The position numbers and the translations under genes were made by a program. Of a stretch of 64,000 nt of DNA, positions 12,202 to 57,996 are shown piece by piece (position 1 is the first letter of the stretch; the number at the start of each line of letters is the position of its first letter). The DNA is taken from the NCBI RefSeq assembly GCF_025791835.1, contig NZ_JAOXLP010000010.1, positions 1-64,000 of the forward strand. Direction: 5' to 3'. The notes under the pieces were generated by a model, which saw only the letters and a program-made list of their open reading frames with translations, did not search any database and was not told the origin of the DNA. The stretch is from Roseomonas xinghualingensis. Its GTDB lineage: Bacteria > Pseudomonadota > Alphaproteobacteria > Acetobacterales > Acetobacteraceae.

Positions 12202-12888
12202 TCAACCCGCCGCAGCGATCTCCGCCAGCGTGGCGCGAAGCTCCGGAATGCCGGTGCCCTTGGCCGATGAGGTGGTGATGACCACCGGATGGGCCGCCAC
12301 GCGCTTGCGCACGATCTCGGCCATCTCCTCCTGGCGCTTCAGCAGGCGCGAAGCGGGCTTGGTGTCATCGGCCTTCGTGAGCACAATCTGGAAGGGCACC
12401 GCGGCCTCGCCCAGCAGATCCATGGCGGCACGGTCGCCATCCTTGGTCTCGATCCGGGCATCCATCAGCAGGATCACGCGCCGCAGGGTCGGGCGGCCGC
12501 GCAGATAGTCAAACATCAGCCCCTGCCAGTCGGCCTTCACCGCCTTGCTGGCGGCGGCGAAGCCATAGCCGGGCATGTCCACCAGCGTCAGCCGCGGCCC
12601 GCTCTCCTCGCCAGCGGCAAAGAAGTTCAGCTGCCGCGTGCGCCCCGGCGTGTGGGAGACGCGGGCAAGGCCGTGATGCCCCGCCAGCGCGTTGATGAGA
12701 GAGGACTTCCCCACATTGGAACGGCCACAGAAGGCCACTTCCGGCGCATCGGCTGGAGGCAGGCCCTCCAGCTTCTGCGCCGCGAAGAAGAACTGCACCG
12801 GCCGCGCGAAGAGAAGGCGCCCGGCCTCAATCCGGGCTGCCTCCTCGGGCGTCATCTCGCCCGGTGCCGGGGTCTGAGAAGCGCTCAC
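12202..12888 (-). CDS. engB: Ribosome biogenesis GTP-binding protein YihA/YsxC/EngB
   Basis: A 228-residue GTPase required for large-subunit assembly. G1 is [11 protein letters not shown] at about residues 49-59, G3 is [11 protein letters not shown]4 is LTKAD near 168, and the G5-like [10 protein letters not shown] is close to the C terminus. The start codon is GTG at 12888; its GTGA overlaps the yidC stop by 4 nt, so translation is coupled to yidC. The first 25 residues are a variable tail. The yidC-engB order is widespread in Alphaproteobacteria. Confidence 0.94.
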
Positions 12889-14645
12889 GTCCGCGCCGCT
12901 GCCTTCTCGGCCCGCTGCTCCGCCCGGTCATGCCGCATGATGTAATACTGCTGCGCGACCGAAAGCAGGTTGTTCCAGGACCAGTAGATCACCAGGCCGG
13001 CGGGGAAGCTGGCCAGCATGAAGGTGAAGATGATCGGCATGAAGCCGAACAGCTTCGCCTGGATCGGGTCCGGCGGCGTCGGGTTCAGCTTGAACTGAAC
13101 CCACATGGTGATGCCCATGATGATCGCCCAGGCCGGCATGTGCAGGAAGGACGGCGCATCCCAGGGGATCAGCCCGAACAGGGTGAACAGGTTCGTCGGG
13201 TCGGGTGCCGAGAGGTCGTGGATCCAGCCGAAGAACGGCGCGTGCCGCATCTCGATGGTGACGAACAGCACCTTGTAGAGCGCGAAGAACACCGGGATCT
13301 GCAGCAGGATCGGAAGGCAACCCGCGGCCGGATTGATCTTCTCGGCCTTGTAGAGCGCCATCATCTCCTGCTGGAGCTTCGCCGGATCGTCCTTATGGCG
13401 CTCCTTCAGCTCCTGCATCTTCGGCCCCAGCACCTTCATGCGGGACATCGACTTGTAGGACTTGTTCGCTAGCGGAAAGAACAGGATCTTCAGGAACACC
13501 GTGAAGACCAGGATGGCCACGCCGAAGTTGCCGAACAGCTTGTACAGCCAGTCCAGCGCATAGAAGAACGGCTTGGTGATGTAATAGAACCAGCCGAAGT
13601 CGATCGCCTTGTCGAAGCCGGTGATGCCCAGGCGCGACTCATAGTCGTCGAGCAGGTTCACTTCCTTCGCGCCAGCGAAAAGGCGGGTGGCGAAGCCCGC
13701 AGTGGCGCCGGGCGCGGCCGAGACCGGCGCGGGCGGCGCGAAATCCACCTGCCAGCGGTCCTGCCCACCTTCCTGCGTCGCGCGGAAGGCGGCGCGGTCG
13801 CGTGCGGACTGATCCACGGGCGCGAGGGCCGCCAGCCAGTACTTATCGGTAAAGCCGGCCCAGCCGCCGGTGCTCTCCATCTCGAAGGCCGTGCCGCTGT
13901 TGCGGCGCTGGGCCTCGGTCTTGGCGTCGGAATACTTCTCCTCGCGCAGGGTGCCGTCGAGCACGCCGACGAAGCCCTCATGGAGGATGTAGAAGTTTTC
14001 CGTCTTCGGCGTGTACTCGCGGCGCACGCGGGCCCAGGGCAGCACCTGCACCGCCTCACTGCCCGTGTTCACCACCCGCTGCTCGGCGGTCACCATGTAG
14101 TTCTCATCGAGCGACAGCGCGATCTCGAAGCGCTGGCCAGCGCCGTTGTCCCAGCGGAGCGTCACCGGGGTGGTCGGCGTCAGGGCGCCGCCCTCGGCGG
14201 TCCACTCGGTGTTCGGCCCCGGCACGACGGTGCGGCCGTCGGCGGCTGTCCAGCCCCACTGAGCGAAGTAGCCGGCGTTGTCCTCGCGTGGAACGAGGAT
14301 GCGGACGTGCGGGCTGTTGTGCTGAACCGTCTCGCGATAGTCGCGCAGGATCAGGTCGTCGAGGAGGGCGCCGCGCAGGTTCACGCTGCCCTGCACGCGC
14401 GGGCTCTCGATCCGCAGGCGCGGTGCCGGGGTGGTCGGCGCGCGGTCACCCTGGCTGGTGCTGGCGACGCCTGCCGGGTTCATCGCGGTATTGCCCTGGG
14501 GCAGCGGCACCCCGCTGCCCTGAATCTGCTCCGTCTGCTGCACGGACTGGCGCACGGCCTCCCGCGCCGGGCGGTTCCACACATCGAAGATCAGCAGGAT
14601 GCCGATCGAGATCGCGATCGCGGCAAGGAGTCGCTTGTTGTCCAT
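12885..14645 (-). CDS. yidC: Membrane protein insertase YidC
   Basis: A 586-residue Oxa1/Alb3/YidC insertase of the Gram-negative form. An N-terminal membrane anchor (RLLAAIAISIGILLIFDVW, residues 5-23) leads into a large periplasmic beta-sandwich (about 60-340). Then come the conserved membrane helices with the hydrophilic groove (YYITKPFFYALDWLYKLFG, then CLPILLQIPVFFALYKVLFV), ending VIYWSWNNLLSVAQQYYIM. The coiled cytoplasmic loop MKVLGPKMQELKERHKDD is intact. It inserts inner-membrane proteins with or without SecYEG. Start ATG is 12 nt after yidD. Confidence 0.96.
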   Translation of the reverse strand: MDNKRLLAAIAISIGILLIFDVWNRPAREAVRQSVQQTEQIQGSGVPLPQGNTAMNPAGVASTSQGDRAPTTPAPRLRIESPRVQGSVNLRGALLDDLILRDYRETVQHNSPHVRILVPREDNAGYFAQWGWTAADGRTVVPGPNTEWTAEGGALTPTTPVTLRWDNGAGQRFEIALSLDENYMVTAEQRVVNTGSEAVQVLPWARVRREYTPKTENFYILHEGFVGVLDGTLREEKYSDAKTEAQRRNSGTAFEMESTGGWAGFTDKYWLAALAPVDQSARDRAAFRATQEGGQDRWQVDFAPPAPVSAAPGATAGFATRLFAGAKEVNLLDDYESRLGITGFDKAIDFGWFYYITKPFFYALDWLYKLFGNFGVAILVFTVFLKILFFPLANKSYKSMSRMKVLGPKMQELKERHKDDPAKLQQEMMALYKAEKINPAAGCLPILLQIPVFFALYKVLFVTIEMRHAPFFGWIHDLSAPDPTNLFTLFGLIPWDAPSFLHMPAWAIIMGITMWVQFKLNPTPPDPIQAKLFGFMPIIFTFMLASFPAGLVIYWSWNNLLSVAQQYYIMRHDRAEQRAEKAAART

Positions 14646-46978: not shown

Positions 46979-47395
46979 TTAGTCGTCGCGGTGAACCCGC
47001 TCCATGCGCTCGTGGCGCTCCTGGGCCTCGATCGACAAGGTCGCGATCGGGCGGGCTTCCAGGCGGCGGAGGCCGATCGGCTCGCCGCTCTCCTCGCAAT
47101 AGCCGTAGGTGCCGTTGTCCACGCGCTCCAGGGCCTGATCGATCTTGCTGATCAGCTTCCGGGCGCGGTCACGGGTGCGGAGCTCCAGGGCCCGGTCCGT
47201 CTCGACGCTGGCGCGGTCGGTGAGATCGGCTTCGATGATCCCGCCCTGCCCCATGGAGCTCAGGGTTTCGCCCGCCTCACGAAGAAGCTCCTGCCGCCAA
47301 CGCAGCAACTTCTGTCGGAAATAGGCAAGCTGCCGGGGGTTCATGAAAGCCTCGTCATCCGAAGGCTTGTAGTCCGGCGGCAAGGTGATGAGCAT
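46979..47395 (-). CDS. dksA: RNA polymerase-binding transcription factor DksA
   Basis: A 138-residue DksA. The coiled-coil runs from about residue 27 to 95, with the catalytic tip around DLTDRASVETDRALE. The C-terminal fold reads YGYCEESGEPIGLRRLEARP, then IATLSIEAQERHERMERV. Only one of the four zinc-finger cysteines is present, the usual condition in many Alphaproteobacteria, so the fold is probably stable without zinc. It works with ppGpp at RNA polymerase to adjust rRNA and other promoters. I chose the ATG at 47395 (MLITLPPDYKPSDDE); one at 47404 is possible. A promoter 60 nt upstream fits. Confidence 0.92.
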   Translation of the reverse strand: MLITLPPDYKPSDDEAFMNPRQLAYFRQKLLRWRQELLREAGETLSSMGQGGIIEADLTDRASVETDRALELRTRDRARKLISKIDQALERVDNGTYGYCEESGEPIGLRRLEARPIATLSIEAQERHERMERVHRDD

Positions 47396-47454
47396 GGCTT
47401 GCATCCCGATGGCCTGGCCGACCCCTCCGGTCCCCCCGGCCTGGTAGGCAGCCG

Positions 47455-47484
47455 CGTATAGCGATGCTGCACAGCGAATAACAA
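47455..47484 (-). promoter_or_regulatory. Sigma-70-type promoter for dksA
   Basis: Minus-strand TTGTTA (47484-47479) and TATACG (47460-47455) are 18 nt apart; transcription would begin near 47448, about 50 nt before the dksA ATG. This rules out the longer open frame that reaches 47548. Confidence 0.5.
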
Positions 47485-47596
47485 GTGCCGATCCTGGGCA
47501 AAGACCCGTAACAAGCGGCATTTCATCCTGACGCAACCGGAATGCCACGGTTTCGGCCTCGTAAACTATGATCTGCCGTCTCCTGGAACCGACAGA

Positions 47597-48010
47597 TCAG
47601 CCACGTCCGGCCCCCAATCCGCGCCGCACCAGTTCGATTCGAGCCCGAAGTGATATTTGCGCCACGGCATCGGCCAGGACAGGGTCGGCGGGCGGCTCCC
47701 CCTCCGCCAGCAAGGCCAGCCGCTCCAGCCGCTCCGGCTCAACCCCACCCGCCAGCATGCCCGCCTGCAGGGCCGACATCTCCTTCAACAGCTCGCGCGC
47801 GCGGGCAGCGCCGCGACGGTCCCGGGCCGCCGCATCCTCTGCCTCCTGAATCGCCACCATTCCCAGAGGCGCCACGGCCAGGGTGGCGCTGCTCTCCGCC
47901 GACTCCTGCGCCGCTCCAGGCAGCCGGAAGCCGCCGCCTCTCGCCGCCGCCCGCGGGCTCGCCGCCGGGGTCGTCCGGCCGATGCCGCCAATGCCGAGCA
48001 TGTCTGCCAT
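47597..48010 (-). CDS. fliX: Flagellar assembly regulator FliX
   Basis: A 137-residue protein starting MADMLGIGGIGRTT, with a conserved C-terminal helical half, MSALQAGMLAGGVEPERLER and then DAVAQISLRARIELVRRG, typical of FliX. In Caulobacter FliX is a trans-acting factor that couples flagellar assembly to the sigma-54 activator FlbD. The ATG at 48010 follows AGGAGAAGG. It is divergent from flgI, the same arrangement known in Caulobacter, and is followed by dksA on the same strand after about 200 nt. Confidence 0.88.
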   Translation of the reverse strand: MADMLGIGGIGRTTPAASPRAAARGGGFRLPGAAQESAESSATLAVAPLGMVAIQEAEDAAARDRRGAARARELLKEMSALQAGMLAGGVEPERLERLALLAEGEPPADPVLADAVAQISLRARIELVRRGLGAGRG

Positions 48011-48032
48011 TGCCTTCTCCTGCCGATTCATC

Positions 48033-48116
48033 CTGCCGGGCAGTGGGAAGAAAAATGTGCCTGCCAGGCAGTTCCTGCCGCTTCCTCCCCACCCCGCCCT
48101 GGCATGGGCATTGCGC
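48033..48116 (+). promoter_or_regulatory. Sigma-54 promoter of flgI with upstream palindromes
   Basis: TGGCAT (48100-48105) and TTGCGC (48111-48116) match the -24/-12 elements, with GG and GC exactly 10 nt apart. Transcription would start near 48125, leaving a short leader with the ribosome site GGAGGT at 48135. Upstream are two 11-bp palindromes, CTGCCGGGCAG (48033-48043) and CTGCCAGGCAG (48061-48071), 28 nt apart, at enhancer distance. They are candidate binding sites for a FlbD-type activator. Confidence 0.7.
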
Positions 48117-48144
48117 TCGGGAAGCCACCTTGGTGGAGGTCATA

Positions 48145-49263
48145 TTGCGCCAGACCGGTTTCCGAAGCGCGAAGGCCGCGCTGATCCTTCTCACCTTCCT
48201 GCTCTGGCCAGGGCTGGCCCTGGCGCAGGTGCGGATCAAGGACATCGCGGATGTCGAGGGCGTGCGCGACAACCAGCTCGTCGGCTACGGGCTGGTTGTG
48301 GGCCTTCCCGGCACGGGGGACCGGCTGCGCTCCGCCATCTTCACGCGCCAGTCGCTGGTCGGGATGCTGGAACGCCTGGGCGTGAACACACGGGACCAGG
48401 AGCGGCAGCTCGACACGCGCAATGTCGCGGCCGTGATGGTCACGGCCAACCTGCCGGCCTTCGCACGGCCGGGCAGCCGCGTGGATGTCGCCGTCTCCTC
48501 GCTGGGGGATGCCACGAATCTCACCGGCGGCATGCTCCTCGTAACGCCGCTGATGGGGGCGGACGGGGAAGTCTATGCGGTGGCGCAGGGGGCGGTCGCC
48601 ACCGGAGCGCTCAGCGCGCGTGGCCAGGCCTCATCCATCCAGCGTGGCGTGCCGACCTCCGCACGCATCTCCTCCGGTGCCGTCGTGGAGAGGGAACTGC
48701 CCTTCGAACTCGCGGGGCGCGACCGCATCCGCCTCTCCCTCCGCAACCCCGACCTCACCACGGCGCAGCGCATGGCGGGGGCGATCAACCACGCGCTGGG
48801 CGCCGGGAACGCGACCGCCACCGATCCACGCACCGTGGTGCTGATGACCGGGAACCGGGACGTCGCGCGCCTCCTGACCGAGATCGAACAGCTCCGCGTC
48901 GAGCCCGATCAGGCGGCCCGCGTGATCATCGAGGAGGCCTCGGGCACCATCGTGATGGGGGCGAATGTCCGCGTCTCCACAGTCGCCATCGCCCAGGGCA
49001 ACCTGACCATCCGCGTCACCGAGACGCCGCAGGTCAGCCAGCCGAACCCCATGGCGCGGGGCGAGACGGTGGTGGTGCCGCGCACCGGAATCGAGGTGGA
49101 CGACCAGCGGGAGCGGCGCCTCGGCATCCTGCGGCGCTCCGTCACGCTGGAGGAGCTGGTGCGCGGGCTGAATTCGCTCGGCGTCGGACCGCGCGACCTG
49201 ATCGCCATCCTGCAATCCATCAAGGCGGCCGGGGCGCTCCAGGCCGAGTTGGAGGTGCGGTGA
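48145..49263 (+). CDS. flgI: Flagellar P-ring protein FlgI
   Basis: A 372-residue exported protein: a signal peptide (ALILLTFLLWPGLALAQ, to about residue 27) followed by VRIKDIADVEGVRDNQLVGY, GLVVGLPGTGD and the later GNLTIRVTETPQVSQPNP, all FlgI hallmarks. It forms the peptidoglycan bushing of the flagellar basal body. The TTG at 48145 has GGAGGT 4 nt upstream, and the length agrees with the family. The frame stays open far upstream, but that region is the fliX gene's other strand. flgJ-like and FlgN-like genes follow. Confidence 0.94.
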   Translation: MRQTGFRSAKAALILLTFLLWPGLALAQVRIKDIADVEGVRDNQLVGYGLVVGLPGTGDRLRSAIFTRQSLVGMLERLGVNTRDQERQLDTRNVAAVMVTANLPAFARPGSRVDVAVSSLGDATNLTGGMLLVTPLMGADGEVYAVAQGAVATGALSARGQASSIQRGVPTSARISSGAVVERELPFELAGRDRIRLSLRNPDLTTAQRMAGAINHALGAGNATATDPRTVVLMTGNRDVARLLTEIEQLRVEPDQAARVIIEEASGTIVMGANVRVSTVAIAQGNLTIRVTETPQVSQPNPMARGETVVVPRTGIEVDDQRERRLGILRRSVTLEELVRGLNSLGVGPRDLIAILQSIKAAGALQAELEVR

Positions 49264-49547
49264 TGCAGGTCGCTCCCTCCGATCATGCCGCCCTCGCCCG
49301 CGTCGCGCGCCGCTTCGAGGCGCAGGCACTGGGCGCCCTGCTCAAGCCGGTCTTCGGAGAGGCACCGAAGGGGCTGCTCTCCGGCGGCGCGGCGGAGGAG
49401 CAGTGGCGGCCGATGCTTATCGAGCATCACGCCCGCGCCTGGTCGGACCGGGGCGGGGTCGGCATCGCCGATGCCGTGTTCCGCGAATTGCTACGCGTTC
49501 AGGGCGACGCGTCGGCACAACCTCTCCAGCAGGGAGCTTCACCATGA
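49263..49547 (+). CDS. flgJ: Rod-binding protein (FlgJ N-terminal domain)
   Basis: A 94-residue stand-alone FlgJ rod-capping domain: ALARVARRFEAQALGALLKP (residues 10-29), then EEQWRPMLIEHHARAWSDRG and GIADAVFRELLRVQG. There is no muramidase domain, as in other alphaproteobacteria where that activity is on another protein. Its ATG overlaps the flgI TGA (TGATG), so it is translationally coupled. It helps assemble the flagellar rod in the periplasm. Confidence 0.85.
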   Translation: MQVAPSDHAALARVARRFEAQALGALLKPVFGEAPKGLLSGGAAEEQWRPMLIEHHARAWSDRGGVGIADAVFRELLRVQGDASAQPLQQGASP

Positions 49548-49960
49548 GTCACGTTTCCATGATCCAGGCGCTGTTGAATGCAGGCCAGCACCTCGCCGAC
49601 GCGCTGCGCGCCGAGAATGAGGCATTGGCGCGGCTGGACCTCTCGCGCGCCGCGGTGCTGGCCAGCGCGAAGCTGCAGGCATCCGACGCCTTCGCCGCCG
49701 CCTATGGCGCCGCGACCAGAACCGGCGACACCGCGCGCGGCGAGCTGCGCGAGGCGGCCGAGCGGCTGGCGGGGCGTCTGCGCGACCTGTCAGAGGAGAA
49801 CCGCCGGTTGCTGGAACGCGCCATCGCGCTGCAATCCCGCGTGATCGAAACCATTGCCGGGGCCGCCATCCCCGCCAGCCGTCCCACAACGTATGGCGGC
49901 ATGGGACAGCGCGTGGCGCCGAGGCAGGCGCCTTCGCTGGCGCTGGCGGCGCGTGCCTGA
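49544..49960 (+). CDS. FlgN/FlbY-like flagellar protein
   Basis: A 138-residue helical protein (residues 1-110 mostly coiled-coil: QHLADALRAENEALARLDLS, then RGELREAAERLAGRLRDLSE and ENRRLLERAIALQSRVIET) with a short disordered tail. It follows flgJ with a 4-nt overlap (ATGA). In Caulobacter a helical protein FlbY occupies this place, and FlgN-type proteins chaperone hook-filament junction proteins; similarity is of that general kind. I infer a flagellar assembly role from position. Confidence 0.65.
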   Translation: MSHVSMIQALLNAGQHLADALRAENEALARLDLSRAAVLASAKLQASDAFAAAYGAATRTGDTARGELREAAERLAGRLRDLSEENRRLLERAIALQSRVIETIAGAAIPASRPTTYGGMGQRVAPRQAPSLALAARA

Positions 49961-50075
49961 GCCGCCGTCACGGCCGCATGCCGCGCTGCAACCACAATGC
50001 TCCGCCCAGCGTGATGCATTTCGCCATCCTTGGCCTGCTGGCGCGCATCCCGCTGCTGGGGCATAGGTCGCGAGG

Positions 50076-50888
50076 ATGGATGCCACGCCCGACGCCGAGG
50101 ATCGTACGACGCAAGAGGCCTGGGCCGCGCTGCTGAAGCGCCGCGCCGGGAAAATGGCGCCATGGCCGCCCCATCCCCTCATCGATCTGTTCGGGCCGGT
50201 GCTCTCGAAGGCCATGGGAAGCGATGGCTGCATGGTGATCGGCCGGCTGGCGCAGACGCTGGATGGACGCATCGCCACGGCCGGCGGATCCAGCCAATGG
50301 ATCGGCGGGCGCGGCGACATCCTGCACACCCATCGCCTGCGCGCCCTGTGCGACGCGGTTCTGGTAGGCGCCGGGACGGTGGTGCAGGACGACCCGCAAC
50401 TGACAACGCGCGAAGTGGCGGGCGACAGCCCGGTGCGCGTGGTGCTGGATCCGTCGCGCCGCCTGCCAACCGATCGGCGCGTCTTCCGCGATACCGGTCC
50501 GCCCAGCATCCTTGCCTGCCTGGAGGATGCGCCGGGCGGAGAGCGCCATGGCAATGCCAGCGTGCTGCGCCTGCCACGCGCCGGGGACGGGATGGATCTC
50601 GCCGCCCTGCTTAGTGCCCTCCATGCACGTGGCCTGTCGCGAATCTTCGTGGAGGGCGGGGGCGTGACCGTCTCGCGCTTTCTGGCGGCGGGGCTGCTGG
50701 ACCGGCTACACCTCACCGTCGCGCCCATCATCCTCGGCTCCGGGCGCGCGGCCTTCATCCTGCCCGAAGTGGCGCGCATCGCGGAAGGGCTGCGTTTCGA
50801 CTGGACCCCTTATCCCCTGGAGGGCGGCGACATCCTTTTCGACATCCCGCTGCGCCGCACGCGGCCGCGCATCTGCGAGGGCGAATGA
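50076..50888 (+). CDS. RibD-type reductase (RibD C-terminal domain)
   Basis: A 270-residue protein with the pyrimidine-reductase domain of RibD (dihydrofolate-reductase-like fold): GRLAQTLDGRIATAGGSSQW (about residues 56-75), LVGAGTVVQDDPQLT, RVVLDPSRRLP, IFVEGGGVTVSRFLAAGLLD and VAPIILGSGR. The deaminase half of RibD is missing. Stand-alone members reduce the ribose of a pyrimidine in riboflavin synthesis or act on related pterins. It opens a six-gene operon (4-nt overlap with the next gene) with no riboflavin genes alongside, so a different substrate is likely. Confidence 0.85.
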   Translation: MDATPDAEDRTTQEAWAALLKRRAGKMAPWPPHPLIDLFGPVLSKAMGSDGCMVIGRLAQTLDGRIATAGGSSQWIGGRGDILHTHRLRALCDAVLVGAGTVVQDDPQLTTREVAGDSPVRVVLDPSRRLPTDRRVFRDTGPPSILACLEDAPGGERHGNASVLRLPRAGDGMDLAALLSALHARGLSRIFVEGGGVTVSRFLAAGLLDRLHLTVAPIILGSGRAAFILPEVARIAEGLRFDWTPYPLEGGDILFDIPLRRTRPRICEGE

Positions 50889-51871
50889 ACACCACCGCCA
50901 CCGCCTTCTGGACCACCGGCCCCGGCCAGGGCGCCATTCATGGCGAAACACTGCGCGCGCCCGGCAAGGACGAGGTGCTGGTCCGCACCCTGGCCAGCGG
51001 CATCAGCCGCGGCACGGAGCGGCTGGTCTTCCATGGCCGCGTGCCGGAGGGCGAATGGGCACGGATGCGCGCCCCGCTGCAATCGGGCGAGTTCCCCTTC
51101 CCCGTCAAATACGGATACGCCGCCGTCGGGGTGGTGGAGGACGGGCCGGAGGAATGGATCGGGCAGCGCGTCTTCTGCCTTCATCCGCACCAGGACAGCT
51201 TCGTCGCCCCACTCTCCCTCTGCGCCCTCGTGCCGGACAATGTGCCTGAATGGCGCGCGGTGCTTGCGGCCAATATGGAGACGGCGCTGAACATCATCTG
51301 GGATGCGCAGCCGCTTCCGGGGGAACGCGCGCTTGTGGTTGGCGCGGGGGTGGTGGGACTGCTCGCAGCCTGGCTGCTCTCGCGTATTCCCGCGATGGAT
51401 CTGGCGGTCGTGGACCCTGATCCGCACCGCGCGCCGGTGGCGCAGCGCCTTGGCCTGCGCTTCGCCGCGCCCGAGGAGGCGCCTGGAGAGCGGGACCTGA
51501 TCATCCATGCCAGCGGTCATCCGGAAGGTCTCCGCACCGCTCTGCGCTGCGCGGGCTTCGAGGCGCGGATCATCGAGGCCTCCTGGTTCGGCGCCGCCGA
51601 ATGCACCCTTCCGCTGGGCGGGAGCTTCCATGCCAACCGCGTCACTATCCGCTCCAGCCAGGTCGGGCAGGTTTCGCCGGCCATGCGCGGGCGGCGCAGC
51701 CATGCGGAGCGGCTGGCGCTGGCGCTTTCCCTGCTGGCAGACCAGGCACTGGACGCACTCTGCGGGCCAGTGATCGCCTTTTCCGAGTTGCCGCGCGCCA
51801 TGCCATCCCTGCTGGGGGACCCGGCGGAAGGCCAGGCAGCGCCTCTCTGTCCCGTCGTGACCTATCAATGA
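50885..51871 (+). CDS. MDR-superfamily dehydrogenase (zinc-less)
   Basis: A 328-residue medium-chain dehydrogenase/reductase. The N-terminal substrate domain begins AFWTTGPGQGAIHGETLRAP, and the Rossmann loop is ALVVGAGVVGLLAAWLLSRI (about 154-173) with VVDPDPHR after the second strand. The cysteine and histidine zinc ligands of alcohol dehydrogenases are not visible, and the lobe after TLASGISRGTERLVF looks like the zinc-free group. It probably oxidises or reduces an intermediate of the cluster. It overlaps both its neighbours' frame or lies 7 nt away, so it is co-translated. Confidence 0.8.
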   Translation: MNTTATAFWTTGPGQGAIHGETLRAPGKDEVLVRTLASGISRGTERLVFHGRVPEGEWARMRAPLQSGEFPFPVKYGYAAVGVVEDGPEEWIGQRVFCLHPHQDSFVAPLSLCALVPDNVPEWRAVLAANMETALNIIWDAQPLPGERALVVGAGVVGLLAAWLLSRIPAMDLAVVDPDPHRAPVAQRLGLRFAAPEEAPGERDLIIHASGHPEGLRTALRCAGFEARIIEASWFGAAECTLPLGGSFHANRVTIRSSQVGQVSPAMRGRRSHAERLALALSLLADQALDALCGPVIAFSELPRAMPSLLGDPAEGQAAPLCPVVTYQ

Positions 51872-51878
51872 GATACGC

Positions 51879-52298
51879 ATGTACAGCCTGACCGTCGCCG
51901 ATCACGTGATGATCGCCCATTCCTTCCGCGGCGAGGGCTTCGGCCCGGCGCAGCGCGTCCATGGCGCTACCTTCGTGGTGGAGGCCGAGTTCCGCGCGCC
52001 CCGGCTGGACGATGCCAACCTGCTGGTGGACATCGCCGCCGCACGGGTGGAACTGCGCCGCATCCTTGACAGCTTCGACTACAACAACCTGGACACGCTG
52101 CCGGCCTTTGCCGGGCAGAACACCACCACCGAGTTCCTGTGCTTCCATATTCATGGCCTGCTTTGCGCCGCGCTGGCGGAGGGCAAGCTCGGCGAGGGCG
52201 GGAAGGCGGTGCGCAGCGTGAAGGTGCTGCTGCGGGAAAGCCCCCTCGCCTGGGCTGCCTATGAGGCCGATGTGCCGGCGGGCACAGCCTCGGCATGA
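51879..52298 (+). CDS. PTPS/QueD-fold protein lacking canonical catalytic residues
   Basis: A 139-residue protein of the 6-pyruvoyl/6-carboxytetrahydropterin synthase fold. The zinc-site region reads MIAHSFRGEGFGPAQRVHGA; the family has histidine-x-histidine with a catalytic cysteine a few residues before, but here HGH is HGA and no cysteine is present. The catalytic histidine of the LDH segment is replaced (FDYNNLDTLP). The substrate-pocket glutamate in TTTEFL remains. So the fold and pterin pocket persist while standard chemistry and full zinc binding are unlikely. It may bind or reshape a pterin. It lies 7 nt after the dehydrogenase and overlaps the glycosyltransferase by 4 nt. Confidence 0.78.
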   Translation: MYSLTVADHVMIAHSFRGEGFGPAQRVHGATFVVEAEFRAPRLDDANLLVDIAAARVELRRILDSFDYNNLDTLPAFAGQNTTTEFLCFHIHGLLCAALAEGKLGEGGKAVRSVKVLLRESPLAWAAYEADVPAGTASA

Positions 52299-53377
52299 AG
52301 ATCGCCTTCGCCGTCCCGGCGCCGCTGGAGGCGATCAGCGGCGGCTATGGCTATGACCGGCGGATCATCGCTGGCTTGCGTGCGCTGGGACATGCGGTGC
52401 GGGTGGAGGAGATGGCGGGCCGCCATCCCCTGCCCGATGCCGAAGCGGAAGCCGCCGCCCGCGGCGTGCTCGCGCGCCTGGCGCCCGGCGAGGTTCTGGT
52501 GGTGGACGGCCTCGGCCTGCCCGCCTTCGCGCCCCTCGCGGAGCTGGAGGCGATGCGCCGCGCCATCGGCCTGATCCACCATCCTACGGCGCTGGAGACC
52601 GGTTTTCCCGAAGCGGATCGCGAGGCGCTGCGCGAGCGCGAGCGCCTTCTCTTCCCACGCCTCGGCCGGCTGGTGACCACCTCGAAGCTCACCGCCGAGC
52701 GGCTGGAACCGGAATTCGGCGCCGATCCCGCGCGGATCGGCACTGTGGAGCCGGGCACGGATGAGGCACCGCGCGCCACGGGCTCCGGACGCGCGGGCTG
52801 CGCCATCCTCTCCGTCGGCGCCATCGTGCCGCGCAAGGGATATGACGTGCTGCTGCGCGCCCTGGGGCGGCTGACGGACATCGAATGGGACCTCACCATC
52901 ATCGGTGCCCCACGCGATCCGGTGCATCTGCAGGGGCTGCAGGGGCTGCAGGGGCTGCAGGGGCTGCAGGGGCTGCAGGCACTGGCCGAGCAACTCGGCA
53001 TCGCGCAACGCGTCACCTTTGCCGGCGAGATGGAGGACGCGGCGCTGGAGGCGCTCTATGCCCGTTCCGATCTCTTCGCCCTGGCAAGCTGGTGGGAAGG
53101 CTATGGCATGGCGGTGGCCGAGGCGCTGGCGCGCGGCCTGCCGCTGGCCATCACCGCTGGCGGCGCGCTGGCCGATCTGGCACCGCGCGACGCGGCCGTG
53201 ATCGCGCAGCCGGGCGACCACAACAGCCTCTCCCGTGCCATGCGCCGCCCCATCTATGACACTGGCCTGCGCAAGGCCATGTCCGACGCCGCCTGGCGTG
53301 CCGGCCAGCGCCTGCCGCGCTGGTCCGACCGCGCCGCAGCCTTCGCCCGCGAGATCGAGACCGCCGCCACCCCATGA
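52295..53377 (+). CDS. GT4-type glycosyltransferase (GT-B fold)
   Basis: A 360-residue glycosyltransferase. The N-terminal lobe has the acceptor glycine loop AISGGYGYDRRIIAGLRALG and HHPTALETG. The C-terminal lobe has AILSVGAIVPRKGYDVLLRA (about 170-189), the nucleotide-sugar region FALASWWEGYGMAVAEALAR and DAAVIAQPGDHNSLSRA. The EX7E-type pattern (EGYGMAVAEAL) marks a retaining GT4 enzyme. Just before ALAEQLGIAQRVTFAGEM lies an LQG tandem repeat from a 9-bp DNA repeat. There is no signal peptide or membrane segment, so it acts in the cytoplasm, perhaps on the small molecule made by its neighbours. Start overlaps the PTPS stop. Confidence 0.85.
   Translation: MKIAFAVPAPLEAISGGYGYDRRIIAGLRALGHAVRVEEMAGRHPLPDAEAEAAARGVLARLAPGEVLVVDGLGLPAFAPLAELEAMRRAIGLIHHPTALETGFPEADREALRERERLLFPRLGRLVTTSKLTAERLEPEFGADPARIGTVEPGTDEAPRATGSGRAGCAILSVGAIVPRKGYDVLLRALGRLTDIEWDLTIIGAPRDPVHLQGLQGLQGLQGLQGLQALAEQLGIAQRVTFAGEMEDAALEALYARSDLFALASWWEGYGMAVAEALARGLPLAITAGGALADLAPRDAAVIAQPGDHNSLSRAMRRPIYDTGLRKAMSDAAWRAGQRLPRWSDRAAAFAREIETAATP
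52928..52979 (+). repeat. In-frame 9-bp tandem repeat inside the glycosyltransferase
   Basis: CTGCAGGGG is repeated five times in perfect tandem (52928-52972) followed by a partial sixth unit (CTGCAGG, 52973-52979). It encodes (Leu-Gln-Gly)5 and then Leu-Gln-Ala. The 9-nt unit keeps the reading frame, so copy changes would lengthen or shorten a loop without breaking the protein. Each unit contains a PstI-like CTGCAG palindrome. Confidence 0.93.
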
Positions 53378-54246
53378 CCGAGAGTTTCGATGCCGATTGG
53401 CTTGAGCTGCGTGAGCCGCCCGATGCCCGTGCCCGCGATCTGCGCCTGGCGCAGGCGCTGTCCGCCGCCCTGCCCGCGCGGCCGCGCCTGCTGGACCTAG
53501 GTGCGGGTACCGGCAGCTTGTTCCGCTGGCTTGCTCCCATCCTGAACCGCCCCCAGGCCTGGACCCTGGTGGATGCGGATGTCACGCTGATCGAATTCGC
53601 CTTCGACACCATCGCCGACCGGGCGGTTGCGGTCGGCTTTGAAGTTTCGGCGCCGAACAAGCACACGCTGCTGGTGCATACCCCGGCCGGCGCATGGCGT
53701 ATCGAGGGGCTGGTGCTGGACCTCGCCGATGCGCCGCATGGCCTGCCGTTGGGGCGTGCCGATGGTGTGGTCTGCACAGCGCTCTGTGACCTCGTTTCCC
53801 GCTCCTGGGTATCACGCATGGCGGAAGCGCTGCGCCTGCCCTTCTATTCGGCGCTGAATGTCCATGGCGATGCACGGTTCCTGCCGGTGCATCCGGCGGA
53901 TGGGACCGTGGCGCGCGGCTTCCGGCGCGATCAGCTGCGTGACAAGGGCTTCGGCGGCCCGGCGCTGGGGGGCGGCGCCACCCGTGCCATGGCTGAAGCC
54001 TTCCGGGCGCAGGGTTTCCAGGTCACCACCGCTCCCTCTCCCTGGCGCATTGGCACGCATGAGACGCGGATGCTCTCGGACCTCGCCCAGGGCCATGCAC
54101 AGGCGGCCATGCGGCAGGCGCCGCGCAACGGCGAGGTGATCACCGGATGGGCGACAGCACGGACGGCGCAGGCGCGGCGCGGACGGCTGCGGGCGGTGGT
54201 CGGGCATTCCGACCTCCTCGCCCTGCCCCCGAGACGAGCCCGGTAG
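53374..54246 (+). CDS. Class I SAM-dependent methyltransferase
   Basis: A 290-residue Rossmann methyltransferase. Motif I is RLLDLGAGTGSLFRWLAPIL (about residues 39-58), followed by TLVDADVTLIEFAFDTI as the acidic ribose-binding loop; the post-I strand LDLADAPHGLPLGRADGVV precedes the catalytic region. No cofactor other than SAM is implied. The start overlaps the glycosyltransferase stop by 4 nt. A basic C-terminal tail (ARTAQARRGRLRAVVGH) is present. It probably methylates a metabolite of this operon rather than nucleic acid, but that is inference. Confidence 0.82.
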   Translation: MTESFDADWLELREPPDARARDLRLAQALSAALPARPRLLDLGAGTGSLFRWLAPILNRPQAWTLVDADVTLIEFAFDTIADRAVAVGFEVSAPNKHTLLVHTPAGAWRIEGLVLDLADAPHGLPLGRADGVVCTALCDLVSRSWVSRMAEALRLPFYSALNVHGDARFLPVHPADGTVARGFRRDQLRDKGFGGPALGGGATRAMAEAFRAQGFQVTTAPSPWRIGTHETRMLSDLAQGHAQAAMRQAPRNGEVITGWATARTAQARRGRLRAVVGHSDLLALPPRRAR

Positions 54247-54251
54247 CAGCC

Positions 54252-55388
54252 ATGGCACAGCTCGGCATCATCGCGGATGATCTGGCGGGCGCGATCGAAT
54301 GCGGAGCCATCCTCATGCGCCAGGGCATGAGCACGGCGGTGGCGATCGGGCTGCCAGAGGATGCACTGCCCGAGGCGGATGCCCTGGCCATCGTGCCAAG
54401 GACCCGCAACGCCCCGGTCACGCAGGCTGTCGCGGAAAGCCTCGCCGCCTGCGAGGCGCTGCTGGCGGCCGGCACGCGGCAGATCCTGCAACTGGTCGAT
54501 CCGGGCTTCGAGGGCGCGGCGATCGCGCCAGTGACCGATGCGCTGCTGCGCCGCTTGCAGGCCAGCTTCGCCGCCATCGCACCCGGTGCTCCCTCCTCCG
54601 GCCGCACCGTCTATCTCGGCCATCTTTTCACCGGCACTGCGCTGGCGGGCGGCGAGCCGAACCTGCCTCGCCGCCTGGCCATGCAGGCCGATGCCCCTGT
54701 CGCGCTGATCCCCTTCCGCATCATGGAAGAAGGTGCCGGCGCGATCCGGCGGGAAATGTCACGCCTTGTGGAAGCGGGGCGGCGCTACGCCATCGCAGAC
54801 TCCCTGACCGATGAGCATCTGCTTGCCCTGGGTGCGGCCGCCGCAGCACAGGCGCTGCTGGTCGGAAGCCCAGGCATCGCCCTCGGCCTGCCGAAGAACT
54901 TCGGTCATCCCTCATTGGGTTCCATACCTGCGGAGGACGTGCCAGATGGTCCGGCCGCGGTGCTGGCCGCCTCGGGCGCGCGCGCGACCATCGCACAACT
55001 TGGCCTGGCACGGCTGTACTGCCCGACGCTCGATCTCGACGGCACGCTCGGCGCCACGGAGGCGCTGGACTGGGCCGCCGCGCAGAAACCGGAGGACGGG
55101 CCGCTGGTGATCGCCGCATCGCCGACTGCTGCGGACGCGCCTGGCACGGGTGAACTGCTCGCGGCACTCGCGGAAGGGCTGGTGGCGCAGGGCGTCACGC
55201 GACTGCTTATAGCAGGAGAGGCTGCCTTCCCCGCCGTGGTGGAGCGGCTGGGTATCCGGCAGCTTCGCATCGGCGCGGAAATCGATTCCGGCCTGCCCTG
55301 GTGCACCGTCGCCGGATCGGGACTGCATATCCTGCTGAAGCCCGGTGCGGCCGGCAGGCGCGACATCCTGCTGCGCGCCTTCAGCTAG
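54252..55388 (+). CDS. Four-carbon acid sugar kinase family protein (DUF1537/OtnK-like)
   Basis: A 378-residue protein. The N-terminal domain begins GIIADDLAGAIECGAILMRQ (DDxxG motif of DUF1537), and the C-terminal nucleotide-binding domain includes RLLIAGEAAFPAVVERLGIR and VAGSGLHILLKPGAAG. OtnK-type enzymes phosphorylate four-carbon acid sugars such as 4-hydroxythreonate or erythronate. Here it closes a six-gene operon, 5 nt after the methyltransferase, suggesting a sugar-acid-like substrate within the pathway. It is followed by a bidirectional terminator. Confidence 0.82.
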   Translation: MAQLGIIADDLAGAIECGAILMRQGMSTAVAIGLPEDALPEADALAIVPRTRNAPVTQAVAESLAACEALLAAGTRQILQLVDPGFEGAAIAPVTDALLRRLQASFAAIAPGAPSSGRTVYLGHLFTGTALAGGEPNLPRRLAMQADAPVALIPFRIMEEGAGAIRREMSRLVEAGRRYAIADSLTDEHLLALGAAAAAQALLVGSPGIALGLPKNFGHPSLGSIPAEDVPDGPAAVLAASGARATIAQLGLARLYCPTLDLDGTLGATEALDWAAAQKPEDGPLVIAASPTAADAPGTGELLAALAEGLVAQGVTRLLIAGEAAFPAVVERLGIRQLRIGAEIDSGLPWCTVAGSGLHILLKPGAAGRRDILLRAFS

Positions 55389-55404
55389 CCTTCCAACAAA
55401 AAAG

Positions 55405-55424
55405 GGGGCGCCAAGGCGCCCCCT
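55405..55424. terminator. Bidirectional intrinsic terminator
   Basis: GGGGGCGCC (55405-55413), loop AA, GGCGCCCCC (55416-55424): a 9-bp stem with A-run before (AAAAAA) and T-run after. It ends the six-gene operon (plus strand) and the histone H1-like gene (minus strand). Confidence 0.93.
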
Positions 55425-55444
55425 TTCTCTGCGCAACGCTGCGA

Positions 55445-56302
55445 TCAGGTCTGATCGCTGCCGTTGTTCATGTTCTCGATCTCCGTCACCACCTCAGTCG
55501 CGGCGGCAGCGGCAGCCTCAGCCTTCCGGCGAGCACGGGTGGCCGCACCCTTCTTCGCAGCCTCGCTACGCGCGGAGGGCGCGGCGCTCTTGCGCGTGGC
55601 AGTGGCGCGCGTCGCAGCGGCGCGGGTTGCCGGCGCCTTGCGGGCGGCGGTGCGGGAGGCCGTCGTGCTGGTGCGCTCGGCGGCCGGCTTGCGCGTGGCG
55701 GCCGCGGTCTTGCGAGCCGGCGCCTTGCGGGCCGTCGTCGCCGTGGCGCGCTTGGCGGCCGGCTTGCGCGTGGCGGCCGCGGTCTTGCGGGCCGGCGCCT
55801 TGCGGGCCGTCGTCGCCGTGGTGCGCTTGGCAGCCGTGCTGGTGCGCTTCGCGGCCGGGCGGCGCGCGGTGGCGGACTTTGCAGCGGTGGCCCGCTTCGC
55901 CGGGGCGCGCTTGGCGGTTGCGGCGGCGGCGGTGCGGCGGCTCGGTGCGGCCTTCTTCGCCGCGGCGGGCTTGCGGGCCGTCGTCGTCTTGCGCGCGGTG
56001 GTCGCCTTGCTGGCGGCGGTCTTGCGAGCCGTCGCCGTCTTGCGCGCGGTGGTGGCCTTGCTGGCGGCGGTCTTGCGAGCCGGCGTGGCCTTCTTCGCGG
56101 AGCGAGCCGTGGCGGTTGCCTTCTTCGCCGTCGTGCTGCCCTTCTTCGGGCCCGGCTTCTTAGCGGCGGCTGTCTTCGTGGCACGCGTCGTCTTGGCGGC
56201 CGGCTTCGCGCGGCCGGCGGTGCTCGCCTTGCGCGTGCCGGCGCTGCGGCGCGTCGTGCTCATGGCCATTGCGGCCGCTCGGGGGGTCTTCTCTTCGCTC
56301 AC
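55445..56302 (-). CDS. Histone H1-like, lysine/alanine-rich repetitive protein
   Basis: A 285-residue protein of almost only Ala, Lys, Thr, Arg, Ser and Pro, like the C-terminal tails of histone H1 and bacterial AlgP/HupA-like proteins. A 25-residue unit (RKPAAKRATATTARKAPARK, TAAAT) is duplicated from a 75-bp DNA repeat (around 55682-55831), and a second unit of 17 residues is repeated near 55989-56090. Only the last 25 residues (EVVTEIENMNNGSDQT end) are of mixed type. It should bind DNA non-specifically. A GTG at 56302 follows AGGAG. Start and repeat copy number may vary between strains. Confidence 0.78.
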   Translation of the reverse strand: MSEEKTPRAAAMAMSTTRRSAGTRKASTAGRAKPAAKTTRATKTAAAKKPGPKKGSTTAKKATATARSAKKATPARKTAASKATTARKTATARKTAASKATTARKTTTARKPAAAKKAAPSRRTAAAATAKRAPAKRATAAKSATARRPAAKRTSTAAKRTTATTARKAPARKTAAATRKPAAKRATATTARKAPARKTAAATRKPAAERTSTTASRTAARKAPATRAAATRATATRKSAAPSARSEAAKKGAATRARRKAEAAAAAATEVVTEIENMNNGSDQT

Positions 56303-56859
56303 GTGCTGGATCTCCTGGGTGCTTTATGTCGAATGGGTCACGTCATGGGCCAAAATCTGACCCGCCGACGCGCCCACCTATCGGGGGGGAGGCGTCACTG
56401 GGTCTGTCTCCGCCGCGCGTTGAGGTGGGGCGTCCATCGCAGGCGCGCATCGGGGGTTCTTCCCTCCGACCACCGCGCCGCGTCCGGCTCGCGATAATGG
56501 GCTATCGTCTCCGAAGCCCGTCTCTCGCATTCGCCCACGGCTCAAAGACCGCCCTTCCGCGCTGCGTTGCGCCGATCACCATCCCCTCCCTTCGCCGCGC
56601 CGCTGCCTGCCGGGTGCATCCAAACTGCACAGGGTGCTTGACAGCATAGCGCGCGAATCGCGTGGAACGGTTCATGCGCGTCTCACGCTATCTGCACGCG
56701 CCCGATGCATGTCAACAAAAAGCCTTCGCGCACGCGCTTATTTTCGCGTGCATCCAACTGGTGTGATCATGCGTTGCGGCGCGTCACGATCCACGATGAT
56801 GCGGAGAGGTTTCGCGAGTTGGCTGCTGCGCGCTGGGCGCAGCAACCATCCCGCCCATG
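56303..56859. other. 557-nt intergenic region
   Basis: No gene is supported here. It must contain the histone-like gene promoter. Visible elements are an inverted repeat GTGCA/TGCAC at 56614-56630 (7-nt loop), a partial second copy of that element (GTGCATCCAA again at 56749-56758), and a hairpin at 56730-56751. A TTGACA at 56639-56644 has no matching -10 element. Local A+T content is higher than in the genes. Confidence 0.5.
56730..56751 (-). terminator. Hairpin downstream of the prpC gene
   Basis: GCACGCG (56730-56736) and CGCGTGC (56745-56751) are perfect complements with an 8-nt A+T loop. On the minus strand it lies about 110 nt after the prpC stop and is followed 7 nt later by CTTTTTGTT, so it may end prpC transcription. 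A protein-binding role is an alternative. Confidence 0.4.
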
Positions 56860-57996
56860 TCAGCGGCGATCGGCCATGGCGGGAACCGCGCGCTGCGTCG
56901 CGCCGGTGTAATGCGAGAGCGGGCGGATAAGGCGGTTGTCGGCCGCCTGTTCGATCACATGCGCCGACCAGCCGGTGATGCGGGCGGCAACGAAGATCGG
57001 GGTGAAGAGAGGGATGTCGAAGCCCATCAGGTGGTAGGCGGGCCCGGCTGGGAAATCGAGATTCGGGTGGATGTTCTTCTTTGCCAGCATCTCGGCCGCC
57101 AGCAGGCGCGACATCTCCATCCAACGGCGGTCGCCCACCACCTCCGCCATCTTCTCGGCATATTGCGTCATGGTCGGAACGCGGCTGTCGCCATGTTTGT
57201 AGACGCGATGGCCGAAGCCCATGACCAGGGCACGATGGTCGAAGCGGGACTGCAGCCATTCCACGGCGCGGGCGGGCTCGCCGATCTCCGAGAGCATGTG
57301 CATCACCGCCTCATTGGCGCCGCCATGCAGGGGGCCCTTCAGCGCGGCGATACCGCCCACCACCGCCCCGTGCAGGTCAGCCCCGGTGGAGGTGATGGTG
57401 CGGGCGGTGAAGGTGGAGGCGTTGAAGCCGTGCTCCGCGTAAAGGGTCAAGGAAACGTCGAAGGCCTTCACCACCTCGGGCTGCGGCACCTTGCCGAAGA
57501 CCAGGTGGAAGAAGTTCTCGGAGAAGGTGAGCGACGGATCCGGCGCGATCGCGTCCTGCCCTTTGGAAGCGCGGTGCGCGGCGGCGATGGCGGTCGGGAT
57601 CTTAGCCAGCAGTCGCATGGCCTTGCGGCGTGTCGCGGGCTCTGAGGTATCGGCGGCCTCCGGATCCTCCATGCCCATGAAGGAGACGGCGGTGCGGATC
57701 GCGTCCATCGGATGCGCGTCGCGCGGGAAAGCTCGGATCACCTCCAGGAGCGCCGGCGTCAGGGCACGCTGAGAGGATTCCTCGCGCCGGAAGCTGGCGA
57801 GCTGGGCCGCGTTGGGCAGTTCCCCGTTCCAGAGGAGATAGGCGACCTCCTCGAAGGAGCACTGCTCGGCCAGGTCCTGCACCGGATAGCCGCGATAGGT
57901 AAGGCTGTTGGTCTCCGGCATCACCTTGGAGACGGCGGAGACATCGGCGACGACGCCGACGAGGCCCTTGCGGATATCGGGCTCGGCTTCGCTCAT
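56860..57996 (-). CDS. prpC: 2-Methylcitrate synthase/citrate synthase
   Basis: A 378-residue citrate-synthase-fold enzyme of the short PrpC type. Key features are KGLVGVVADVSAVSKV at the start, TNSLTYRGYPVQDLAEQCSF, the catalytic histidine in ALKGPLHGGANEAV (about residue 226), the second in GFGHRVYKHGDSRV, and aspartate in NLDFPAGPAYHLMG. PrpC condenses propionyl-CoA with oxaloacetate; such enzymes often use acetyl-CoA as well. A GGAGGAAG site fixes the ATG at 57996. prpD lies 109 nt upstream on the same strand, supporting a methylcitrate cycle. prpB (the lyase) is not in the window. Confidence 0.88.
   Translation of the reverse strand: MSEAEPDIRKGLVGVVADVSAVSKVMPETNSLTYRGYPVQDLAEQCSFEEVAYLLWNGELPNAAQLASFRREESSQRALTPALLEVIRAFPRDAHPMDAIRTAVSFMGMEDPEAADTSEPATRRKAMRLLAKIPTAIAAAHRASKGQDAIAPDPSLTFSENFFHLVFGKVPQPEVVKAFDVSLTLYAEHGFNASTFTARTITSTGADLHGAVVGGIAALKGPLHGGANEAVMHMLSEIGEPARAVEWLQSRFDHRALVMGFGHRVYKHGDSRVPTMTQYAEKMAEVVGDRRWMEMSRLLAAEMLAKKNIHPNLDFPAGPAYHLMGFDIPLFTPIFVAARITGWSAHVIEQAADNRLIRPLSHYTGATQRAVPAMADRR

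Follow-up and report, generated by a model that had tools for sequence, protein, structure and literature searches.

What is made by the compact run of six genes at positions 50,076 to 55,388 of a 64,000-nucleotide stretch of Roseomonas xinghualingensis DNA (contig NZ_JAOXLP010000010.1 of assembly GCF_025791835.1, positions 1 to 64,000; hereafter the window)? A preliminary description, made from the sequence alone, read all six as one operon for a glycosylated, methylated small molecule, perhaps with a pterin-like scaffold. The outline of that interpretation holds, but two of its points are wrong: the proposed kinase and the analogy with cyanopterin-type glycosides. The core cluster consists of five genes, which encode a RibD_C-type reductase, an MDR-superfamily dehydrogenase/reductase, a PTPS-IV protein, a GT4-type glycosyltransferase and a class I S-adenosylmethionine methyltransferase (MT). 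In Acetobacterales, an old PTPS-IV biosynthetic cluster of wide distribution takes this five-gene form.

The third gene (51,879-52,298, plus strand) encodes a PTPS-IV protein. FGPAQ defines this subfamily in the accessible part of a 2017 study of 561 sequences, which places PF00925 and PF01872 in the neighborhood (PMC5445326); in an alignment of 40 sequences that includes the window's, F, G, P and A are present in all 40 and Q in 39. As a single sequence, the window protein matches only one PDB entry, SCO6650 of Streptomyces (3d7j; PTPS-IV subfamily of COG0720), at E 2.3e-39 and 137.6 bits, or 206.4 bits with a profile. The two belong to the same protein family and both carry FGPAQ. Residues H14, FGPA (21-24), H28, G29, A30, T84, E85 and E120 are invariant across the alignment. 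When the 40 sequences are aligned with 3i2b and 1b66, all have Ala both at the position taken here to hold the catalytic Cys and at the second His of HGH, presumably a zinc ligand, and the presumed catalytic His is replaced by Tyr in 33 and by Phe in 7. The structure paper on SCO6650 reportedly found no zinc, no triad and no PTPS activity, together with a pterin-like pocket.

Other PTPS types were considered and rejected. Instead of the CxxxHGH motif of PTPS-I (QueD), the window protein has AQRVHGA, and it scores 37.7 bits against the QueD cut-off of 89.25. The missing motif also speaks against a role in queuosine synthesis; other queuosine genes were not searched for. PTPS-II, the biopterin type with CxxxxxHGH and a Cys/Asp/His set, does not fit a protein in which Cys and the second HGH His have become Ala and the catalytic His has become Tyr, the Asp being kept. 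The ExxHGH motif of PTPS-III, the folate type, is absent from the window protein. The automatic name carried by PTPS-IV relatives, '6-carboxytetrahydropterin synthase', is misleading.

The neighbors of PTPS-IV were counted at 141 loci spanning Pseudomonadota, Actinomycetota, Gemmatimonadota and Acidobacteriota. The set comprises the window, 60 loci from its class (20 of the same family, a same-order sample from 42 strong matches, and 40 of other families) and 80 loci from a named genome collection (L120-L199). The class sample covers 40 of the 44 strong matches besides the window (G406, G201, G212 and G393 were left out), and the collection sample is the best 80 of at least 588 loci and favors near relatives. 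Neighbors within 6.5 kb on either side were scored by tblastn with an E threshold of 1e-5 rather than from the gene maps, whose rough greedy gene calling fuses some genes and misses others; the 141 loci are partly redundant, with some genomes counted twice, and contig ends cut some of them. MDR is found near PTPS-IV at 136 loci (134 on the same strand), GT4 at 133 and MT at 120 (all on the same strand), and RibD_C at 108. A CDP-alcohol phosphotransferase is a neighbor at 40, GTP cyclohydrolase II (GCH II) at 32, a creatininase-family hydrolase at 26 and a flippase-like membrane protein of LPG-synthase type (LPG-TM) at 21. GTP cyclohydrolase I (GCH I) is a neighbor at a single locus (L072), although the FolE2 family, PF02649, was not searched. 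The conserved synteny that the preliminary description had proposed looking for is thus present far beyond the alphaproteobacteria, and its suggestion that the glycosyltransferase and the methyltransferase belong with PTPS and RibD_C holds, since both are near-constant partners.

The composition of the cluster varies between groups. At the 40 class loci from other families, MDR and GT4 occur in 39 each, MT in 36, RibD_C in 32, GCH II in 16, the CDP-alcohol phosphotransferase in 13, YceI in 11, cytochrome b561 and MdoH in 9 each, and the creatininase in 8. Among 17 actinobacterial loci, the counts are 16 each for the CDP-alcohol phosphotransferase, MDR and MT, 15 each for GT4 and LPG-TM, and 13 each for GCH II and the creatininase. 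In the remaining 18 of L165-L199, MDR and GT4 are always present, MT in 15, RibD_C in 14, the CDP-alcohol phosphotransferase in 11, LPG-TM in 6, the creatininase in 5 and GCH II in 3. Three loci of 26-28% GC in genomes of 1.4-1.6 Mb (L091, L094, L095) read creatininase-MDR-PTPS-GT4-MT-RibD-GCH II. In Streptomyces (L195), the order is MDR, PTPS, GT4, MT, an LPG-TM-matching frame (12,560-13,620), creatininase and GCH II; if SCO6655 is a GCH II paralogue, as we assume, this order fits the numbering from SCO6650 to SCO6655. At a Gemmatimonadales locus (L178, 12,286-20,396), LPG-TM and the creatininase are accompanied by MdoG, an MdoH match and a weak sulfatase-type protein.

The recurrence of GCH II rather than GCH I points to the pyrimidine branch, leaving early riboflavin synthesis, and not to a biopterin-type route. 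In the window's own genome, matches to PF00925, PF01227, a second PF01872 and a second PTPS all lie on other contigs, in agreement with the earlier remark that no GTP cyclohydrolase or riboflavin genes are in the window. The genome's GCH II, on another contig, is 49% identical to a cluster GCH II, and its other RibD_C gene, likewise on another contig, is a complete bifunctional RibD with a deaminase domain (339.9 bits; cut-off 156.35). All 16 class genomes with a cluster GCH II have at least one more PF00925 match elsewhere, often a weaker one, so the cluster enzyme may serve riboflavin synthesis too.

Near the bifunctional RibD (contig C64, L207) lies a RibBA fusion with 281.5 bits for DHBP synthase and 117.6 bits for GCH II. 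Its GCH II half may be degenerate, because it aligns with cluster GCH II at only 25-30% identity and the segment surrounding the RAY motif is missing. Of two GCH I genes in the genome, the second adjoins a second PTPS-family gene with HGH on contig C36 (L211, L212). This PTPS gene scores 60.6 bits against the QueD cut-off of 89.25, and it has a motif other than CxxxHGH.

The RAY motif also varies within the cluster GCH II proteins, although the pattern missed it in 4 of the 32 loci. The position of the E. coli RibA Tyr is Met in the Streptomyces clusters L183, L188, L189, L191, L192 and L195-L198 (Met120 of the L195 protein aligns with it) and His in other actinobacteria, L167, L175, L181 and L184. 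In SCO6655, a Tyr-to-Met change reportedly leaves the reaction at the formylated product; a formamidase of the creatininase family would then be required. BrbF of Sinorhizobium, a creatininase-family protein, deformylates the GCH product AFRPP, and two more distant homologues failed to replace it, according to the part of the source that was available (PMC9478397), so this activity cannot be assumed for the cluster creatininase. As in the archaeal early riboflavin steps (ArfA, ArfB and ArfC) together with BrbF, a GTP cyclohydrolase, a creatininase-type hydrolase and a deaminase-less RibD_C are clustered in some groups, but here they are joined with PTPS-IV, MDR, GT4 and MT. The window's RibD_C differs further from archaeal ArfC in scoring below the model cut-off and in having no creatininase nearby.

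From gene order, conservation and residue patterns, which are read directly, we infer every reaction and the product of the following pathway, in which the five genes would take GTP by way of GCH II to a methylated, glycosylated pterin-like molecule. We consider this reading probable, though by no means secure. GCH II, encoded elsewhere in the genome and presumably shared with riboflavin synthesis, would open GTP to a diamino-ribosylamino-pyrimidinone phosphate. The RibD_C protein (50,076-50,888, plus strand) would then reduce the ribosyl to a ribityl chain, giving a ribityl diaminopyrimidinone phosphate that retains the 2-amino group, so that the ring would stay pterin-like and not lumazine-like. 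RibD_C is the only Pfam domain of this 270-residue protein (residues 54-227), and the N-terminal deaminase domain of bifunctional RibD is absent. An action of the ArfC type is proposed because the reductase motifs are kept: D105-D106-P107-x-L109-T110-x-R112 and E193-G194-G195 are conserved at 90-100% in 50 aligned sequences, including the window's. PTPS-IV would bind the ring through the retained Thr/Glu pocket of its T-fold and, being incapable of zinc/Cys side-chain chemistry, would instead form, condense or isomerize a second ring.

The remaining steps would be reduction or oxidation of a side-chain carbonyl or alcohol by MDR, addition of a sugar by GT4 and addition of a methyl group by MT. 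The MDR protein (50,885-51,871, plus strand) has only weak dehydrogenase matches, including one to BchC that falls far below the cut-off (51.1 of 291.25 bits). Among the positions of this protein that are at least 90% conserved across 59 sequences, none is a Cys, in line with the zinc-less dehydrogenase described earlier. The glycosyltransferase (52,295-53,377, plus strand) has GT4 domains only. MT (53,374-54,246, plus strand) represents a conserved subfamily without a name; an AlphaFold2 model, 1000 Foldseek hits and a PDB profile search return the general class I fold and nothing more specific. Of five genes scanned for anti-phage defense, only MT gave a signal, weakly matching mads_2 over residues 22-139 (E 7e-7), and this role was rejected. 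In other groups, the CDP-alcohol phosphotransferase and LPG-TM suggest that the product might be attached to a lipid or phospho-alcohol and transported across the membrane.

Several observations weigh against this pathway. No donor of the second-ring carbons is apparent. The window's RibD_C scores below the cut-offs of the archaeal ArfC-type reductase model TIGR01508 (109.1 of 186.45 bits) and of TIGR00227 (137.5 of 150.15 bits). The Asp of the presumed PTPS Asp-His pair is still Asp in 9 of the 40 PTPS-IV sequences, the window's among them, and another residue in 31. RibD_C is found near only 1 of the 17 actinobacterial loci and LPG-TM near none of the 40 other-family class loci, so neither step is universal. 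Within the window's own group of 66 loci (the window, the 20 same-family loci and the 45 of L120-L164, mostly Acetobacterales), GCH II, the creatininase, the CDP-alcohol phosphotransferase and LPG-TM are near none, so their role here has to be drawn from other groups. Proteobacterial cluster GCH II proteins with a readable motif keep the Tyr, and a separate deformylase would thus not be needed there.

Would another product fit better? The genes might make a tetrahydropterin glycoside of the cyanopterin or tepidopterin type from dihydroneopterin triphosphate supplied by GCH I, with PTPS acting on the side chain and RibD_C serving as a dihydropterin reductase before glycosylation and methylation. 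In its favor are the adjacency of PTPS fold and glycosyltransferase and the two GCH I genes of the genome, and DmrA of methylotrophs, a RibD_C relative, can reduce a pterin. Such a product is nevertheless unlikely: the catalytic Cys, catalytic His and zinc His are all replaced throughout PTPS-IV, the single GCH I neighbor, in a count without FolE2 (PF02649), compares with 32 for GCH II, and one of the two GCH I genes adjoins the genome's other PTPS-family gene, which keeps HGH. The same counts and replacements speak against the earlier analogy with cyanopterin-type glycosides. Tetrahydrobiopterin is a GCH I-derived pterin. It is the substrate of the Chlorobium pteridine glycosyltransferase in the accessible text of PMC5683033, and what that enzyme and cyanopterin would share with the cluster is a pterin-type ring with a glycosyltransferase. 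The cluster could instead yield a non-pteridine product, such as a modified pyrimidine nucleoside or a polyol-phosphate conjugate (for example, a glycolipid head group), with PTPS-IV as a binding or isomerizing subunit. The CDP-alcohol phosphotransferase and LPG-TM neighbors would suit it, as would the lack of an evident enzyme for the second ring and the loss of the known catalytic residues from PTPS-IV. We regard it as fairly unlikely, given that T84, E85 and E120 are invariant and that both lipid-type genes are absent nearby throughout the window's group.

An additional riboflavin pathway of the archaeal type, or else a contribution to cofactor F420 synthesis, would account for GCH II, the creatininase and RibD_C, which match the first archaeal riboflavin steps, and an F420 assignment for PTPS-IV is in print on the basis of unpublished work, as the available part of the source has it (PMC5041015). 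This is very unlikely: bifunctional RibD, DHBP synthase and GCH II are already encoded elsewhere in the genome, and the near-constant GT4, MT and MDR are not known to fit either pathway. A pterin or pyrimidine scaffold, as first suggested, remains the best reading: the Thr-Glu pair and the further Glu of PTPS-IV are invariant, the RibD_C motifs are kept and GCH II is a recurrent neighbor.

The sixth gene (54,252-55,388, plus strand) encodes a DUF1537 protein, described earlier as a kinase of the six-gene operon. ATG 54,252 is taken as its start, since SBD_N does not begin until residue 39 in the longer open reading frame. The protein is related to the 3-oxo-tetronate kinase OtnK, at 242 bits against a cut-off of 350, and has none of the four OtnK motifs (ADDxTGA, CSTFDST, GGETSG, SGNFG). 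In an alignment of 22 DUF1537 proteins (the window, 14 class-sample loci and 7 of the 38 carriers among L120-L164), the full set of four motifs is present in 16, not one remains in the window, L100, L120 or L125, and some are lost in L103 and L121. The intact L104 copy scores as OtnK (591.7 bits) and lies next to OtnC (289.6 bits, cut-off 250), a tetronate-degradation pair, and the OtnC-type family to which this neighbor belongs (c9) recurs in 10 same-family loci. The window's copy, by contrast, is degenerate, and what follows it is a terminator-like hairpin instead of OtnC. Against L100, the ratio of nonsynonymous to synonymous substitution (dN/dS) is 0.40 for DUF1537, compared with 0.30 for RibD, 0.17 for MDR, 0.12 for PTPS, 0.18 for GT4 and 0.14 for MT; against L120, it is 0.40 compared with 0.08-0.21 for the other five genes. 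Three intact OtnK pairs give 0.13, 0.16 and 0.21.

Judged by its sequence, the window's DUF1537 gene would be a decaying remnant of a neighboring sugar-acid module, and it probably lies outside the pathway. Could it still be a kinase that phosphorylates an intermediate or the product, so that all six genes form one pathway? The gap to MT is only 5 nt, the frame is still open in spite of the motif loss, and 14 of the 20 same-family loci and 38 of the 45 of L120-L164 have a DUF1537 gene close to the operon. Against the more distant L101, moreover, its dN/dS of 0.48 is little above the 0.27-0.46 of the other genes, and the contrast is nearly gone. We consider a six-gene pathway highly improbable, since all four motifs are lost in the window and three further copies, its dN/dS exceeds that of its neighbors when near relatives are compared, the intact copy belongs to tetronate degradation and DUF1537 is near none of the 40 other-family class loci.

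The five-gene cluster is widespread. With the window PTPS as query, strong PTPS-IV matches are found in 43 of 150 genomes of the order (E at most 1.1e-34; two more are weak), 45 of 385 of the class (the window's own included; four weak) and 27 of 398 of the phylum (E at most 8e-29; 77 others at E 3e-12 or above), and in each search strong and weak matches are sharply set apart. At least 588 PTPS-IV loci are confirmed in the named collection; the best 80 of these include Roseomonadaceae, Lamprocystis, Granulosicoccus, Marinobacter, Leptothrix and Zoogloea as well as Streptomyces, Amycolatopsis, Actinomadura, Gemmatimonadales and one acidobacterial bin. One search returned at least 7989 protein relatives at E below 0.001, possibly including other PTPS types.

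The set looks old because, in a joined MDR, PTPS and GT4 tree, Actinomycetota and Gemmatimonadota each fall on one side of a branch; Pseudomonadota fall in two parts. The tree was built by a quick method from 44 rows (the window, 8 of the 45 loci L120-L164 and all 35 of L165-L199). The row closest to the window is that of Roseomonas sp. KE2513, at 82% across the joined proteins, and among the PTPS matches listed are Roseomonas sp. WA12 (88%) and Muricoccus vinaceus (90%). The clusters of two betaproteobacterial bins (Leptothrix L186, Zoogloea L199) may have been transferred between classes, because their PTPS sequences are 74-75% identical to that of the alphaproteobacterial L080 and 55-56% to the window's. 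Across the 150 order genomes, PTPS-IV is strong in 24 of 30 with a photosynthetic reaction-centre gene and 19 of 120 without one. Kinship confounds this association and no reaction-centre gene was found in the window's own genome, so nothing is drawn from it.

Within the window, all six frames lie on one strand as first described, with spacings of -4 (RibD/MDR), +7 (MDR/PTPS), -4 (PTPS/GT4), -4 (GT4/MT) and +5 nt (MT/DUF1537), and because of this spacing the genes from 50,076 to 55,388 likely share one transcript. Pfam E-values are 1.4e-42 for RibD_C, 9e-20 for PTPS, 9e-26 for GT4, 1e-32 for SBD_N and 4e-13 for NBD_C; MT has a weak methyltransferase match (2e-5). The strong terminator noted at the operon end corresponds to a stable hairpin directly downstream (55,401-55,426, plus strand; -24.8 kcal/mol, z -3.3), a probable intrinsic terminator that none of 200 shuffles equals and that is followed by UCUCU; it is absent from the output of a simple consensus terminator scan. 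A promoter scan of 48,000-57,000 listed no sigma-70-like sites and is blind to other promoter types. Inside the GT4 gene (52,928-52,979), 5.8 perfect in-frame copies of the 9-bp unit CTGCAGGGG encode Leu-Gln-Gly repeats, likely a length-variable stretch. Upstream (46,979-49,960) lie FlgI and a FlgN-like gene on the operon strand and FliX and DksA on the opposite strand; the FlgI family is present again in 12 of 21 same-family loci. Downstream, 55,445-56,302 (minus strand) encodes a Lys/Ala/Arg-rich protein with several tandem repeats and no Pfam matches, which we take to resemble histone H1/AlgP-type proteins.

PTPS-IV with GCH II and RibD_C neighbors has been in print since 2017. In the available part of that paper, only GCH II (as FolE2) and RibD_C are named as neighbors, whereas MDR, GT4, MT, the creatininase, the CDP-alcohol transferase and LPG-TM are counted here as well (PMC5445326). 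A description of the wider cluster and its product was not found in the literature searched, and neither 'PTPS' nor '6-pyruvoyl' occurs in the accessible text of a 2026 review of bacterial pterins (PMC13259868). Nor are the full gene set and its spread described in that literature.

The window's cluster belongs to a family already known yet still unsolved, and the conserved set turns the old question of SCO6650/PTPS-IV function into a defined experiment. Since the set has been retained both in Streptomyces and in genomes of 1.4-1.6 Mb, a trivial product is unlikely. It is conceivable, though quite unlikely, that the cluster makes a hitherto undescribed, widely distributed redox or signaling cofactor, a 2-amino (pterin-like) counterpart of the flavin precursors that bears a ribityl or polyol chain as well as methyl and sugar groups and that in many lineages is linked through its chain to a phospholipid and flipped across the membrane, with PTPS-IV as a metal-free ring-former. 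If so, PTPS-IV would be a T-fold enzyme of new chemistry and the window's group would make a soluble form. More broadly, the cluster suggests a second class of small molecule from an early riboflavin precursor in bacteria.

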